From positions 1 to 64,000 of the forward strand of contig CAIVWH010000024.1 of the NCBI GenBank assembly GCA_903909605.1: a stretch of DNA of 64,000 nucleotides, written 5' to 3'. Position numbers and translations under genes: made by a program. This document shows, one piece after another, positions 3,272 through 22,546 of the stretch. Numbering within the stretch: position 1 is the first letter of the stretch; every line of letters begins with the position of its first letter. The notes beneath the pieces are model-generated. The model was not told the DNA's origin and did no database searches. It was given only the letters and a program-made list of their open reading frames with translations. The DNA is from an uncultured Micrococcales bacterium. Its GTDB lineage: Bacteria; Actinomycetota; Actinomycetes; Actinomycetales; Microbacteriaceae.

Positions 3272-4246
3272 ATGATTCTGGTCATCGGCGAAGCCCTCAT
3301 CGATCTCATCGAAAACCGCTACCAGGCCGGTGGCTTCAACGCCGTGGTCGGTGGCGCAAACGCAAACGTAGCGCTGGCCCTTGCCCGTCGCGGCACACCG
3401 CATCAGTTCCTCGGCCGCATCTCAAACGATCGGTTCGGCAAAATCATCCGCGAGCGCCTCGCAAGCAACCAGGTTTCGCTCGAACATTCCATCAACACGG
3501 ATGAACTAACCACGCTCGCCGTGGTCAGCATCGACTCGGCCGGCGTGCCCTCCTATTCGTTCTACGTGAACGGCACCGCCGACTGGGGCTGGACCCCCGC
3601 GGAGTTGCCAACCGACGTGGAACTTGAAAACATGCACGCCACCGCAATTCAGTTCGGCTGCCTGACTATGGCGATGCAGCCATCCTCGTCGGTGATCGAA
3701 GCCTGGGCGCGCTCGCATTTCGAGCAAAACTCGGTGACCATCTCGCACGACATCAACATGCGGCCGGCACTTGGCTTCGAAGCTGCGGCAGAGCGCATCC
3801 GAGTTGAAAGACTCAACTCGATCTCGCACCTAATCAAGGCAAGCGATGAAGACATCAATTGGCTCTATGGGCTGGATGAAGGTTCGAGTGTCGACGAGAT
3901 CGTTCGCGACTGGATAGGCGACAGTCAGCGCGTGGTGATGGTCACCCGAGGCGCCGAGGGCACGTCGATCTACCGTGCAGATCGCCGAATCGATGTTGCA
4001 TCACGCAAAATCAACGTGGTCGACACCGTTGGAGCCGGCGACACTTTCTGCGCCAACCTGCTTGGTCAGCTCAGCGATGTCGATGCGCTCGGCAGCGACC
4101 CGTTCGACCGCTTCGCCAATCTGAGTGACGAGGCCTTCGCAGAGTTTGCGAGGGTGGCCTCGGTCTCTGCCTCGATTACCTGCGAGCGCGCCGGATGTGA
4201 GCCGCCCACGCTCGAGGATTTGTCTGCGACTCTGCGTAGTCTGTAA
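3272..4246 (+). CDS. PfkB-family carbohydrate kinase (fructokinase/ribokinase-like)
   Basis: 324 residues, the normal family length. The N-terminal substrate signature GGANANVALALARRG is at about 27-41. The C-terminal ATP signature DTVGAGDTF contains catalytic base D257. Family members phosphorylate furanose sugars or related compounds with ATP in the cytosol. The gene is divergent from a HAD phosphatase and is followed after 3 bp by a membrane-protein gene, so those two are probably co-transcribed. Fructose is the most likely substrate from general resemblance, but this is not resolved. Confidence 0.9.
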   Translation: MILVIGEALIDLIENRYQAGGFNAVVGGANANVALALARRGTPHQFLGRISNDRFGKIIRERLASNQVSLEHSINTDELTTLAVVSIDSAGVPSYSFYVNGTADWGWTPAELPTDVELENMHATAIQFGCLTMAMQPSSSVIEAWARSHFEQNSVTISHDINMRPALGFEAAAERIRVERLNSISHLIKASDEDINWLYGLDEGSSVDEIVRDWIGDSQRVVMVTRGAEGTSIYRADRRIDVASRKINVVDTVGAGDTFCANLLGQLSDVDALGSDPFDRFANLSDEAFAEFARVASVSASITCERAGCEPPTLEDLSATLRSL

Positions 4247-11620: not shown

Positions 11621-12466
11621 TTAGTTCAGCGCGCCTACCTGCTCGAAGCCGAGCTCGACCGGAGTCTCACGCTCGAACAGCGAAACGAGAACGGTTAGCT
11701 TGCCGCTCTCAGGCTTGATTTCCGAAATGGTTCCAGGCAGACCTGCGAACGAACCATCCTTGATCATGATGCTTTCGCCAACCTTGTAGTCGACGTTGAT
11801 TGGCAGAGACTTGCCCTTGCCGCCCTTGACCACGCCGGTGGCGCGTCCAGGAGTCTTGACGATCTCTTCCTTCGGCAAGCGCTCTTCGTACTTGGCCTTC
11901 TTGAGCATCTCCCACGCTTCGCCTGGGCGCAACGGGGTTGGGTTCTGCGAGTCGCCTACGAAGCCGGTAACCGCTGGGGTGTGGCGAACCAGGTCGCCCG
12001 AGTGCTCGTTGAGTTCCATGCGAACCCAGACATAGCCAGGGATCATGACCTTCTTGGTGAGCTTGCGCTCGCCGTTCTTAACTTCGATGGTCTCTTCGAT
12101 TGGCACAACGATTTCGAAAACGTCGTCGCCGCCTTCGAGCAGCTGTGCACGGTTTTCGATGTTCTGCTTTACGCGCTTCTCGTAGCCAGCGTATGAGTGA
12201 ACGACATACCACTTGCCGGCAAGACCACGGAATTCGCTCTTGAACTGCGCGTAGACATCCTCATCAACTTCTTCGGCTGCGGCCTGGGTTGCAACTTCGG
12301 TGTCTTCAACGATTGAGATCGCTGCCTCTTCGGCACTGAGCTCTACGGTCTCTTCGGCTTCGCGGGCTTCCTCAACTGCGTCGAGGTACTCGTGCTGCGA
12401 CTGCGCCGCCGCCTCGTGGTCGGCCGAAAGCAATTCGTCTAACGCTTCGCGCTCGATATCACTCAT
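11621..12466 (-). CDS. nusG: Transcription termination/antitermination factor NusG
   Basis: 281 residues. The NGN domain ([17 protein letters not shown], from about 86) and the C-terminal KOW domain ([18 protein letters not shown], about 225-281) are both clear. Residues 1-80 form a very acidic Glu/Ala-rich extension absent from E. coli NusG (181 aa) but similar to extensions in other actinobacteria. NusG binds RNA polymerase and affects pausing, Rho action and coupling to ribosomes. The start follows AGGAAATAGCA. It is downstream of secE by 29 bp. Confidence 0.97.
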
Positions 12467-16221: not shown

Positions 16222-16235
16222 CTAGGTGAAACTGG

Positions 16236-16309
16236 TAGCTAGGGCGGGACTCGAACCCGCGACCCCACGATTATGAGTCGTGTGCTCTAACCACCTGAGC
16301 TACCCAGCC
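16236..16309 (-). tRNA. tRNA-Met (CAT anticodon, elongator type)
   Basis: 74 nt. The acceptor stem GGCTGGG/CCTAGCT (with two G-U pairs) carries discriminator A. The anticodon loop is CTCATAA (CAT). A paired 1-72 end argues for an elongator rather than an initiator tRNA. CCA is not encoded. Confidence 0.95.
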
Positions 16310-16334
16310 GGGTAAATCGATTTACACCGATCAG

Positions 16335-16406
<72 letters not shown>

Positions 16407-16430: not shown

Positions 16431-16460
16431 AGATTACTAGGTTTAGCCCTTGGCAGGCAA
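16431..16460 (-). promoter_or_regulatory. Promoter of the tRNA-Thr/tRNA-Met pair
   Basis: Minus strand: TTGCCT (16455-16460), 18-nt spacer, TAATCT (16431-16436), then about 24 nt to the tRNA 5' end. The -35 lies inside the 3' end of the amylase gene. Confidence 0.55.
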
Positions 16461-18311
16461 ACGCCATATGTTCAAAGACAACGCCTTGCCTGGCAGTTTC
16501 GCCTTGTCGCCAGCGATCGAAATCTTGCCCCCGCCGAGCAGGTTTTCGGCCTTGGCCAAGCCAGCTACGGCGTCTTTTGGCAGGGCAATCTTTGCGTCTG
16601 CACCGCGAGTGACAGCAACCAGGATGGCCTGCTTCGCGTTTTCGCGAACATAGACAATTGCCTCATCGCTCGCATACAAAAAGCGCATCGAGCCATCGTT
16701 GAGCGCCGAGTTCTCGCGGCGAATCTTTGACAGTGCGGCGTAGTGCTCAATCAGGGTCGGGTCGTTCGGGCGCTCGTTGTTCCACGGCAGCGGAGTGCGA
16801 GAGCTCTCGCCGTTGTAGCCGTCGAGACCGAACTCGTCGCCCGCCCAAATTACCGGGATGCCCGGGAAGGTGAACTGCATGCCCGCGGCCACGCGCTGTG
16901 CCCCCGCGATTGCGTAGGTCTTGAAGCGCGGGATATCGTGAGTGTCGAGCGGATTCATGTTGTGAAGTCGCACGTGCCATGGGAAGCCCGCGATGAACTG
17001 CGTATAAGAGGTAACTAGATCGCGACCGCTTGCCTTCGGGTTTCCATCCCACATCGAGAAACCCGGTGCACCCTTGGCAAACTTTCCGCGGGAGCGGTCA
17101 TCCGAGTTGTAGAACCAACGCCAAACCGGCTTCGTGAAGTTCGAGTAGGTCATGGCACCCTGCCAGCCATCGCCCTGCACTTCATAGGCCGCGTCGCCGG
17201 TGTACTCACCCAGCATGATGGTGTTCGGGTTGATCTCGACCATGGTCTGACGCACAACCTGCGAAACCTCGAGGTACATGTCCTCATCGCGGGTGCGGCC
17301 TGTCATGTTCGCAACATCGATGCGCCAGCCATCAATGCCGTAGGGCTTCTTCAACCACTTTGCGACAACCGAATTGCCACCCTGGATGAACCGACGACGA
17401 AGCTCCTTGCTGTTCCAGTTGAACTTGGGAAGGCTCGGAACTCCGAACCAAGCCTCGTACTTCTTGTTGCCATCCGAGAAGTAGTAGAAGCTGCTTTCCT
17501 TGGCCCCGGGCTTCTTGTAGGCGGCCTTGAACCATTCGTGACTGTCGCCCGAGTGATTCGAGGTGAGGTCGCCGATGATTCGCATGCCCTTGCGGTGCAC
17601 GGCCTCGATTAGCGCCTGGTATGCCATGTTGCCACCGAGAATCGAGTCAACTTCGTGGAACGAACTCGCGTCGTAGCGGTGGTTCGACTTGCCTGGGAAA
17701 ATCGGGGTCAGATAGACCAGGTTCACACCCAGCTTCTTCAGATGGTCGAGGTGGTCGATGATTCCCCAGAGGTCGCCCCCGAAAAGCTGCTCAGAAGTGC
17801 CGGGGCCGTGACCGATGACCTCGTCACTCCACTTCTTGGCTATCGCCCATTCTGGAGTCTTGTGCTCATCCGCGTGCTGCGAACGCGCAAAGCGGTCGGG
17901 GAAGATTTGGTACATGATTGCCGAGGCGCCCCACTTTGGCGCCGACGAGAATGTGTTGATTCTGAAATCTTGGATGTCCGGCTGAATCAAATCGTGCAGC
18001 CCCTGAGTGTTGTACCAATAGGTCTGCCCCGAGGTCAGCACGATCATGAAGCGATAGTTCATCTTCGGGTTGTGCATCACGATGGTGGCTTCATACCAGG
18101 CCCAACCACCCTCGCGCTTGATGACCTTTGCCGGTGCCGAAGGAAACGCCTCGCCGCTCTCGCTGTAGCGAATGCGCACTTCTTGCACATTGCCGAGCGC
18201 CTTGTGCACGCGGATGCGGATTTTGATTTTTTCGAGCAGCTTCGGCTTTTGGTTTGGAACGTAAAGCGCGGATCCGTCATGGTGTGGGTGCAAAGAAAAA
18301 TCGAGGGCCAT
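16443..18311 (-). CDS. GH13 maltodextrin hydrolase (neopullulanase/cyclomaltodextrinase-like)
   Basis: 622 residues, no signal peptide, so cytosolic. Residues 1-120 form a beta-sandwich N-domain like that of neopullulanases. The catalytic barrel starts near MYQIFPDRF (~135). GH13 regions are DLTSNHSGD, GIDGWRIDVAN (nucleophile Asp), MLGEYTGD (acid/base Glu) and NPLDTHDIPRF. It should cleave imported linear or cyclic maltodextrins. It is the last gene after malE-malF-malG, 36 bp past malG, but starts from its own leaderless ATG embedded in a terminator hairpin. The first codons ATG GCC CTC GAT TTT TCT TT double as terminator arm and T-tract. Confidence 0.93.
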   Translation of the reverse strand: MALDFSLHPHHDGSALYVPNQKPKLLEKIKIRIRVHKALGNVQEVRIRYSESGEAFPSAPAKVIKREGGWAWYEATIVMHNPKMNYRFMIVLTSGQTYWYNTQGLHDLIQPDIQDFRINTFSSAPKWGASAIMYQIFPDRFARSQHADEHKTPEWAIAKKWSDEVIGHGPGTSEQLFGGDLWGIIDHLDHLKKLGVNLVYLTPIFPGKSNHRYDASSFHEVDSILGGNMAYQALIEAVHRKGMRIIGDLTSNHSGDSHEWFKAAYKKPGAKESSFYYFSDGNKKYEAWFGVPSLPKFNWNSKELRRRFIQGGNSVVAKWLKKPYGIDGWRIDVANMTGRTRDEDMYLEVSQVVRQTMVEINPNTIMLGEYTGDAAYEVQGDGWQGAMTYSNFTKPVWRWFYNSDDRSRGKFAKGAPGFSMWDGNPKASGRDLVTSYTQFIAGFPWHVRLHNMNPLDTHDIPRFKTYAIAGAQRVAAGMQFTFPGIPVIWAGDEFGLDGYNGESSRTPLPWNNERPNDPTLIEHYAALSKIRRENSALNDGSMRFLYASDEAIVYVRENAKQAILVAVTRGADAKIALPKDAVAGLAKAENLLGGGKISIAGDKAKLPGKALSLNIWRLPAKG

Positions 18312-18333
18312 ACCGCAAGTGTATGACCCTCGA
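18292..18333 (-). terminator. malG terminator overlapping the start of the amylase gene
   Basis: Minus strand: arm TCGAGGGTCATAC (18321-18333), loop ACTTGCG, arm GTATGGCCCTCGA (18301-18313), then TTTTTCTTT. All 13 pairs form (one G-U). The second arm contains the amylase ATG (18309-18311), and the T-tract is its codons 4-7. Confidence 0.85.
18318..18323 (-). promoter_or_regulatory. Leaderless -10 (TACACT) for the amylase, inside the terminator hairpin
   Basis: TACACT spans the end of the first hairpin arm and the loop, exactly 6 nt before ATG 18311. A transcript starting at the ATG would lack the first arm and could not form the terminator. Confidence 0.6.
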
Positions 18334-18347
18334 TTGCGATTCTTTGA

Positions 18348-19259
18348 TTAGCCCTTTACGGCGCCTCCGAGCAGACCCGAGACGATGTAACGCTGCAGGA
18401 ACATGAACAGAGTCACAACTGGAATGGCCGCAAGAACTGCTCCAGCGGTAAACATCGACCAGTCCTTCGAGTAAGGGTCTGAGATGAACTGCTGCAGACC
18501 AACTGCAAGAGTCAGGCTCTCAGGCTTCGAAAGCACAACCGAAGCGAGCACGTAGTCCGAGGTGATTCCGATGTAGCTCAGCAGCATCTGAACGGCGAGC
18601 ACCGGCGAAACCAAACGCATGATGATGCCGTAGAAGATCTGGGTGTGGGTCGCACCGTCGAGCTTGGCAGCTTCATCCAGTTCTTTAGGAACAGTGTTGA
18701 AGAAGCCGTACATCAGGTAGGTGCCACCACCGAGCGAGCCGCCCAGATAGATCATGATCAGGCCGAGCACCGAGTCGAGACCGAATGCCGGGAAGATCTT
18801 TCCGATTTCGGTCAGCATGCCGAAGATGGCGACCAAACCGAGAAGCGAAGGGAACATCTGGATGAGAATCAGGCTGAGCAGACCACCACGGCGACCGCGG
18901 AAACGCAGGCGCGAGAAGGCGTATGCAGCCAGAGCCGAGATGAATACCGACAAGACCGAGGTGACCAGACCGATAATCACAGTGTTCATGTACCAGAGGC
19001 CGAATGGGCGGGCCGGGTCGCTGAACAGGTTGATGTAGTTCTGGAACGAAATCGCCGCAAACAGCGTGTTCGTGCCTTCGATGCTGTTATTTGGGAACAG
19101 CGAGGTCGAAAGGATGTAGAGGATCGGGAAGATCGCATACAGGATGAGCGCGAGGCCCACCAGGTGACGCCAGCCCGTGGTCAGGAACCACTTAAGCGGC
19201 GTGCGACGCTTCTTTTTCATCTTTAGTGGCTGCTCAATTACTGCGGTTGCGTTAGCCAT
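18348..19259 (-). CDS. malG: Maltose/maltodextrin ABC transporter permease MalG
   Basis: 303 residues with six membrane segments. The permease EAA loop is at about 195-215 (ELDEAAKLDGATHTQIFYGI), followed by proline- and glycine-rich spacing typical of binding-protein-dependent sugar permeases. It pairs with MalF in the membrane. It overlaps the malF stop by one base (TAATG), implying coupled translation. No malK-type ATPase is in the window, so a shared sugar ATPase (MsiK type) elsewhere is inferred. Confidence 0.93.
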   Translation of the reverse strand: MANATAVIEQPLKMKKKRRTPLKWFLTTGWRHLVGLALILYAIFPILYILSTSLFPNNSIEGTNTLFAAISFQNYINLFSDPARPFGLWYMNTVIIGLVTSVLSVFISALAAYAFSRLRFRGRRGGLLSLILIQMFPSLLGLVAIFGMLTEIGKIFPAFGLDSVLGLIMIYLGGSLGGGTYLMYGFFNTVPKELDEAAKLDGATHTQIFYGIIMRLVSPVLAVQMLLSYIGITSDYVLASVVLSKPESLTLAVGLQQFISDPYSKDWSMFTAGAVLAAIPVVTLFMFLQRYIVSGLLGGAVKG

Positions 19260-22493: not shown

Positions 22494-22546
22494 AACTACG
22501 TAGTTGAAGGACTTGCAATCAAGTCCCTACTATCAAACCGCTTTCT
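22494..22546 (-). promoter_or_regulatory. Cluster of dyad elements upstream of malE
   Basis: Three symmetric elements lie in 53 bp: AACTACGTAGTT (22494-22505, perfect, central CG), GGACTTG-CAAT-CAAGTCC (22509-22526, perfect arms), and TCAAACCGCTTTCT (22533-22546), which fits the AAANCGNTTT core of LacI-family operators. These are inferred sugar-responsive operators. No regulator gene is in the window. Confidence 0.5.

Follow-up and report, generated by a model that had tools for sequence, protein, structure and literature searches.

The minus strand of the window, by which we mean the whole 64,000-nt stretch of DNA analysed, carries the maltose-transporter genes followed by a GH13 gene (malE 22479–21256, malF 21076–19259, malG 19259–18348, GH13 gene 18311–16443). 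The 36-nt gap that separates malG from the GH13 gene, together with GH13 codons 1–7, contains an element that we consider probably to be a compact boundary between two co-directional genes: it would terminate the incoming RNA, hide the AUG in RNA that reads through, and restart transcription as a leaderless amylase RNA. This genome (labelled G000) comprises 1.34 Mb in 31 contigs. The host bacterium and the relatives that carry the GH13 gene probably come from fresh water, judging by sample names, and the named records among those relatives (12 loci) are metagenome-assembled genomes under the titles Microbacteriaceae, Micrococcales or Actinomycetota. The malG protein matched the NCBIfam MalG model at 2.5e-58, yet under the curated cut-off, and the top NCBIfam model for the GH13 protein was maltodextrin glucosidase (4.8e-122, under the model's cut-off). 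Directly 3′ of the amylase gene, tRNA-Met and tRNA-Thr lie on the same strand at 16233–16406 (minus). The features of the junction, with the differences in a second copy present in the congener G070, are as follows.

18348–19259, minus strand: malG, encoding a maltose-type ABC permease and ending upstream of the element (open reading frame; Pfam BPD_transp_1).
18350–18348, minus strand: malG stop codon (read directly, located by script).
18336–18347, minus strand: 12-nt spacer from the malG stop to the stem, containing CAAAGAA, which can pair with UUCUUUG of the T-tract.
18321–18335, minus strand: hairpin arm 1, AATCGAGGGTCATAC, non-coding; the G070 copy is the same but for one paired change.
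18318–18323, minus strand: TACACT, predicted -10 element 6 nt before the ATG; same hexamer in G070.
18314–18320, minus strand: hairpin loop ACTTGCG; ACTTGCT in G070.
18299–18313, minus strand: hairpin arm 2, GTATGGCCCTCGATT, containing the start codon (fold, script location).
18309–18311, minus strand: ATG of the GH13 gene, with the predicted leaderless RNA 5′ end at 18311 (first start; spacing rule).
18291–18300, minus strand: T-tract TTTTTCTTTG, running from the third base of codon 4 to the end of codon 7 (read directly).
16443–18311, minus strand: GH13 alpha-amylase/maltodextrin glucosidase-like gene, 622 aa (open reading frame; Pfam Alpha-amylase 4.2e-49).

Read along the minus strand, the parts follow in the order spacer, arm 1, loop, arm 2 and T-tract, with TACACT (18323–18318) made up of the final three bases of arm 1 and the initial three of the loop. 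Most of this layout had been described in an initial annotation, which correctly gave one G-U pair, a 7-nt loop, the ATG of the next gene within the second arm, a T-tract at codons 4–7 and TACACT 6 nt before the ATG; its 13-bp stem, read directly, is a stem of 15 bp including the one U·G pair (arms 18335–18321/18313–18299). This stem can be extended by an outer helix of 7 bp (CAAAGAA/UUCUUUG) in folds of longer RNA. The T-rich synonyms TTT.TCT.TTG of the T-tract have a joint frequency of 0.004 in this genome. Arm 1 with CAAAGAA (18336–18346, minus strand) resembles the reverse complement of the first 20-odd bases of the GH13 gene, hinting that the hairpin arose when the start region was duplicated in inverted orientation.

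Folding of the 47-nt strand gave −24.1 kcal/mol (z −7.4), and none of 200 shuffles was as stable. A promoter/terminator scan found a terminator at the element, and the form is that of an intrinsic terminator, i.e., a stable stem-loop with a U-tract directly after it, located 12 nt past the malG stop on the same strand. Across 733 kb, the genome contained 81 stems with at least 13 pairs, and 30 of these had a T-tract; three Markov-1 random sets contained 16, 18, and 14 such stems, with a single T-tract stem in each. This excess of T-tract stems, together with the fold, backs the earlier view of a terminator-like hairpin, and we consider that it likely works as a terminator. The malG/amylase element is the sole one of the 81 stems to overlap a called start, start positions being approximate because the gene calls were our own (a codon-usage ORF caller taking the first ATG/GTG/TTG). 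Rfam covariance models run on 18150–18450 matched nothing at the element; the one match (18229–18255, E 0.62) fell below the gathering score.

A leaderless promoter at 18311 is very likely, because TANNNT stands exactly 6 nt before 84 of the 544 first starts in the sample of this genome and before only 16 of 7628 internal ATG/GTG codons, making this arrangement about 73 times commoner at first starts. Other spacings between 0 and 34 were each found at 0–8 starts, with about four at most positions and an exception of 12 at spacing 7. The spacing-6 peak recurs in G070 (27/193 starts) and G006 (39/293); the same arrangement precedes 22/150 starts in G017, 19/147 in G059, 11/88 in G062, 10/70 in G069, and 13/112 in five genomes of other genera. 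With about 12–15% of first starts preceded by TANNNT-N6 in this genome and six congeners, leaderless genes appear to be common in the genus. The amylase start (TACACT-TGCGGT-ATG) obeys the rule exactly, as the initial annotation of a leaderless promoter would require; that TACACT is itself an uncommon -10 here (2 of the 84 gap-6 starts) counts against the promoter. Counting from the upstream in-frame stop, the ATG at 18311 is the earliest possible start, with no Shine-Dalgarno sequence in reach; GAGGG lies 15 nt from the ATG, inside the stem. A scan for a sigma-70 -35/-10 pair at the element found none and no good -35, which also counts against the promoter. Leaderless promoters of actinobacteria generally have a weak -35, and we therefore do not hold its absence to be defining.

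These properties resemble those of sigma-A leaderless genes in other actinobacteria, in which ATG or GTG stands at the RNA 5′ end with no leader or Shine-Dalgarno sequence, as described in the accessible parts of reports on Corynebacterium glutamicum (PMC3890552) and Mycobacterium (PMC4633059). In C. glutamicum, TANNNT, the -10 form shared with the amylase start, precedes about 97% of mapped starts and 33% of mRNAs are leaderless (PMC3890552), and in mycobacteria an ATG or GTG at the RNA 5′ end is necessary and sufficient (PMC4633059). Unlike the amylase start, the leaderless genes in those parts of the two reports are not described with a -10 and start codon inside the terminator of the preceding gene.

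The way in which the element would work, with its insulation, termination, 5′ end, AUG occlusion and separate control, is inferred from sequence and can be put as follows. Polymerase arriving from malEFG would make the 15-bp hairpin and U-tract 12 nt past the malG stop and terminate. In RNA that reads through, the amylase AUG would lie inside the stem with no usable Shine-Dalgarno sequence and would be poorly translated. A sigma-A type promoter, with TACACT in the arm-1/loop region as its -10, would start RNA at the A of the ATG, and the resulting leaderless mRNA, lacking arm 1, would form no hairpin and be translated. Predicted folds support this logic, which the initial annotation had proposed: the AUG is paired in both 47-nt and 151-nt folds of RNA coming from malG, and a 60-nt RNA starting with the AUG has little structure (z +1.55, most shuffles being more folded). 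Termination, AUG hiding and an own leaderless start would together cut the amylase gene out of the maltose-transporter operon and make it controllable alone.

The junction was compared across the genus. In a DNA search of 67 genus genomes with 241 nt of junction, the top match apart from this genome itself was G070 (76% along the full query), and G023, G020, and G085 aligned over most of its length at 66–68%. A protein search with the N-terminal third of the GH13 protein matched 39 of the 67 genomes, and the amylase start was readable in 37, a contig cut accounting for the other two. The malG gene lies just upstream in 27 of these 37, and the element is found in two of them (G000 and G070); tblastn of the upstream 0.8–1.5 kb placed no malG there in 10 of the 37. 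Junction classes, assigned by eye from printed sequences, comprised a one-base stop/start overlap (TAATG or TAGTG) in 14 genomes, abutting genes in one, a gap of 4–13 nt in six, and a gap of 34 nt in two, including G068 with TAGGTT-N6-ATG. By position, the first three classes, which make up 21 of the 27 congeners that have malG upstream, look co-transcribed. In G001 (L165) and G077 (L168), a terminator-like hairpin (GTGGGCCC...GGGTCCAC; −19.8 and −20.0 kcal/mol) is followed directly by a Shine-Dalgarno sequence and ATG. From these classes, the fused form is rare (2/27) and uncoupling of the GH13 gene has come about by several routes; the hairpins of G001 and G077, the TAGGTT-N6-ATG of G068 and the 10 genomes lacking an upstream malG lend help to the uncoupling reading. 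The initial annotation had named loss of the dyad in close relatives, with gene order kept, as a ground for refuting it, and here the outcome is divided: the dyad is absent from 25 of the 27 genomes with malG upstream, including the nearest amylase relatives, yet it is kept in the non-sister G070 with a double change that preserves pairing.

The G070 copy occupies the same place and consists of AATCGAGGGACATAC-ACTTGCT-GTATGTCCCTCGATT, a T-tract and TACACT-N6-ATG. Its hairpin is longer than that of this genome (19 bp, −29.1 kcal/mol, z −10.6). The two copies differ at three of 47 positions, namely both sides of one pair (A-U in G070, U·G in this genome) and one loop base. When three random substitutions were made, no pair was lost in 10.6% of trials, and in 0.9% none was lost although one pair had changed on both sides; since intact pairing is this frequent by chance, information comes only from the double-sided change. 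This single event, as modest evidence, points to RNA pairing rather than DNA symmetry as the property maintained. Codons 3–7 do not differ between G000 and G070, for which conserved residues elsewhere give an expectation of 0.013. We set aside the notion that this identity proves purifying selection, since recent transfer gives the same identity; likewise, low divergence of the copies alone is not proof of constraint, because a recent transfer may be shared. Because a more distant relative has nearly the same element at the corresponding position, it is probably functional rather than accidental.

The two copies are not explained by inheritance between sister lineages. In a 31-row amylase tree (starting at the PHHDG motif, thus excluding the element, and omitting six of the 37: G067 and G034 with <500 residues, and G075, G080, G068, and G084, which the script did not extract), G000 grouped with G035, G022, and G087 (98/95) and G070 with G002 (100/99). 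Forcing G000 and G070 together lowered lnL by 101, and vertical inheritance as sisters was rejected (AU p 3.7e-64). Trees were made for the amylase only, and malG was compared by identity windows. Between G000 and G070, identity is 44/48 from −24 to +24 around the ATG, falling upstream to 6/12 in the adjacent stretch and then 17/24, and downstream to 30/36 from +24 to +60, then 25/40 and 29/50; the flanks adjoining the element are thus 50–83% identical. In 100-nt windows over 900 nt upstream and 1000 nt downstream, identity ranges from 46–81%. G022, G035, and G087 are closer to G000 in most windows, yet in them stop and start overlap as TAATG, and the N-terminus is different and longer. G002 has MPDFSLQPHHDG, resembling MSLDFSLQPHHDG of G070 and MALDFSLHPHHDG of G000. 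Because the two genomes are non-sister on the tree and their adjacent flanks are this diverged, the data suggest transfer of a very short tract (the element plus first codons) into the G000 line as the simplest account, or, as an alternative history, an old element retained in two lines and lost in many. With two copies to compare, the abrupt edges of identity may reflect a short recombination tract or strong selection confined to the element.

A bolder extension of the boundary-element reading, which we offer as speculation and think unlikely, is that the 47-bp element acts as a stand-alone splitter of operons and has passed from one species to another by recombination of very short tracts. 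Taking the place of a TAATG junction, it would in one step convert a gene that was co-transcribed and coupled in translation into a leaderless gene with a start of its own, and the polymerase may be handed on while the RNA is broken. Because terminator and promoter share bases, a released polymerase would be about 20–30 bp from the next -10 and could reach it by one-dimensional diffusion. Dispersal as a repeat or mobile element was rejected, the element being single in this genome: a repeat search gave one match in its own genome at E <= 10. In 398 family genomes, among which G070 was not drawn, a 29-mer searched with up to three mismatches matched only this genome. Among the 67 genus genomes, a 19-mer was exact only in G000 and G070 (four matches in all, the two elsewhere having two mismatches).

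Other explanations of the junction assign the hairpin a different role or none. It may be that a promoter and an occluding hairpin act with little termination, blocking translation of operon read-through, with the T-rich codons incidental. The AUG in the 3′ arm and the promoter inside the hairpin fit this, as does the precedent of phage T4, whose I-TevI, segB, and mobE hairpins work in this way according to the part of PMC2988022 available. We nevertheless rate it rather unlikely, given that the T-tract directly follows the stem despite the infrequency of that codon combination, that the hairpin lies 12 nt past the stop like several other T-tract hairpins in these samples, and that G001 and G077 have terminator-like hairpins at this junction too. 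A leaky terminator or attenuator within an operon, with amylase translated from malEFG read-through and the -10 match due to chance, seems improbable: the AUG would be buried in a −24 kcal/mol fold with no Shine-Dalgarno sequence in reach, the 6-nt spacing is far commoner at first starts than inside genes, and hexamer and spacing are identical in G070. This is so even though most congeners with malG upstream look co-transcribed and the -35 is missing.

Two further explanations are a DNA operator and a neutral duplication. Operator-like inverted repeats are frequent in sugar operons, and a long inverted repeat does cover the promoter here, so that the dyad might be a DNA site for a protein; however, usual operators are unlike 15-bp arms with a T-tract, the U·G pair keeps RNA pairing while breaking DNA symmetry, and the element is single in this genome, with a separate operator-like site present in G070. 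We regard an operator as very improbable. Hardly credible is a functionless inverted duplication of the first 20-odd bases of the gene by template switching: in both genomes arm 1 closely resembles the start region read as its reverse complement, but pairing, -10 hexamer and spacing are intact in two non-sister genomes that diverge in the adjoining flanks.

The separate site in G070 is GTAAGCGTTTAC, located between the malG stop and arm 1, just before the hairpin (L111:138-149), and a close relative of it, GTAAGCGCTTAC, lies 66 nt before malE (L110:16000-16011; malE from 16078). By their look, we take both to be putative LacI-family operators. Their likeness is as expected for a separately controlled promoter. 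The same motif scan at the malG-amylase junction of this genome gave no operator-like site, an absence that counts against the boundary-element reading. Similar TGTAATCG-TTT sites precede amylase genes that do not adjoin malG (e.g., in G011, G016, G021, G026, and G027). In the window, an inverted repeat, ACTTGATTGCAAGT, is located before malE at 22511–22524 (minus strand) and occurs exactly also in L063, L066, L069, L070, L110, and L111 (230 loci scanned); it is perhaps a candidate regulator site of maltose genes.

The proximity of terminators to leaderless starts extends beyond this locus. Among leaderless starts with a same-strand stop no more than 200 nt upstream, a hairpin with at least four T in or near the interval was found at 7/34 in G000 (element included), 4/13 in G070 (own element filtered out) and 3/18 in G006. 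In G006, these hairpins end 7, 10, and 17 nt before the start, so near that in two cases the -10 shares stem or T-tract bases; at L144 (~11715-11765, minus strand) and L154 (~3825-3876, plus strand), the stem end or T-tract reaches or enters the -10 of the next leaderless gene. Terminator and leaderless start often lie close together in this genus, and the malG/amylase element is the extreme of the range. Stop-to-start gaps in the leaderless-pair listing for G000 show an excess at 9 nt (16, compared to 5 at 8 nt and 1 at 10 nt), and in 9 of the 34 leaderless pairs the upstream TAG or TAA stop supplies the TA of the next -10, a sharing that may be partly chance because the stop codon itself brings TA.

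Hairpins with a start in the 3′ arm after TANNNT-N6, which the initial annotation had proposed searching for in related genomes, are not widespread. We surveyed 2.18 Mb from seven genus genomes, this one included, and five of other genera. A T-tract hairpin held the start in its 3′ arm at 1 of 220 leaderless starts, or 2 of 221 counting the G070 copy, which the script left out, its start being <200 nt from the end of the stretch. The corresponding count among other starts was 3 of 1340, with stem lengths of 13, 17, and 20 pairs and with start calls that are uncertain, and a hairpin over a called start is therefore not unique by itself. One site, at ~11994-12040 of L142 in G006 (minus strand), has a 20-pair hairpin and T-tract over a called GTG lacking TANNNT, a start call that may be wrong. 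No site in this survey combined such a hairpin with TANNNT-N6 besides the G000 and G070 copies.

The closest known systems are hairpin-regulated late genes of phages T4 and Aeh1 (I-TevI, segB, mobE; also soc and e), as described in the part of PMC2988022 available. There, as predicted for the element, RNA initiated upstream hides the translation start, and a promoter in or beside the hairpin yields RNA without the 5′ arm, which is translated. In the element, likewise, the start lies in the 3′ arm and, judging from positions and folds, the promoter would give RNA without the 5′ arm. Unlike the T4 hairpins, which hide a Shine-Dalgarno sequence and whose late RNA keeps a leader, the element has no Shine-Dalgarno sequence to hide and no leadered short RNA is predicted; moreover, its hairpin has terminator form, and in that part of the source the T4 hairpins are not described as terminators (PMC2988022). 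Based on this absence of a Shine-Dalgarno sequence, its predicted leaderless short RNA and its terminator form, the element is outside the T4 set. For polymerase diffusion and restart at a nearby promoter after intrinsic termination, the accessible part of PMC6978380 reports in vitro observations; according to its authors, restart was yet to be observed in vivo.

In its GC-containing stem, short loop and U-tract just past a stop codon, the element is like bacterial intrinsic terminators; unlike the usual ones, it has codons 1–7 of the downstream gene as its 3′ arm and U-tract. For yeast, terminator-promoter bifunctional elements have reportedly been designed (PMC10298055), short parts that close one unit and open another, as would be the case here; these are man-made and eukaryotic, with an unrelated mechanism. 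In the open-licence PMC literature, we found no terminator arm holding the start and promoter of the next gene, which does not prove its absence from print. The parts are known, and their combination is apparently new, with an unusual shared history in two non-sister lines.

If the element works as read, a single stretch serves as terminator, promoter, start codon and seven codons, a case of signal overlap in a streamlined genome. It would offer a testable case for how genes leave operons in evolution, and for whether polymerase restarts at an overlapping promoter after termination in cells. If this holds true, the element would also be a ready-made and very short insulator.
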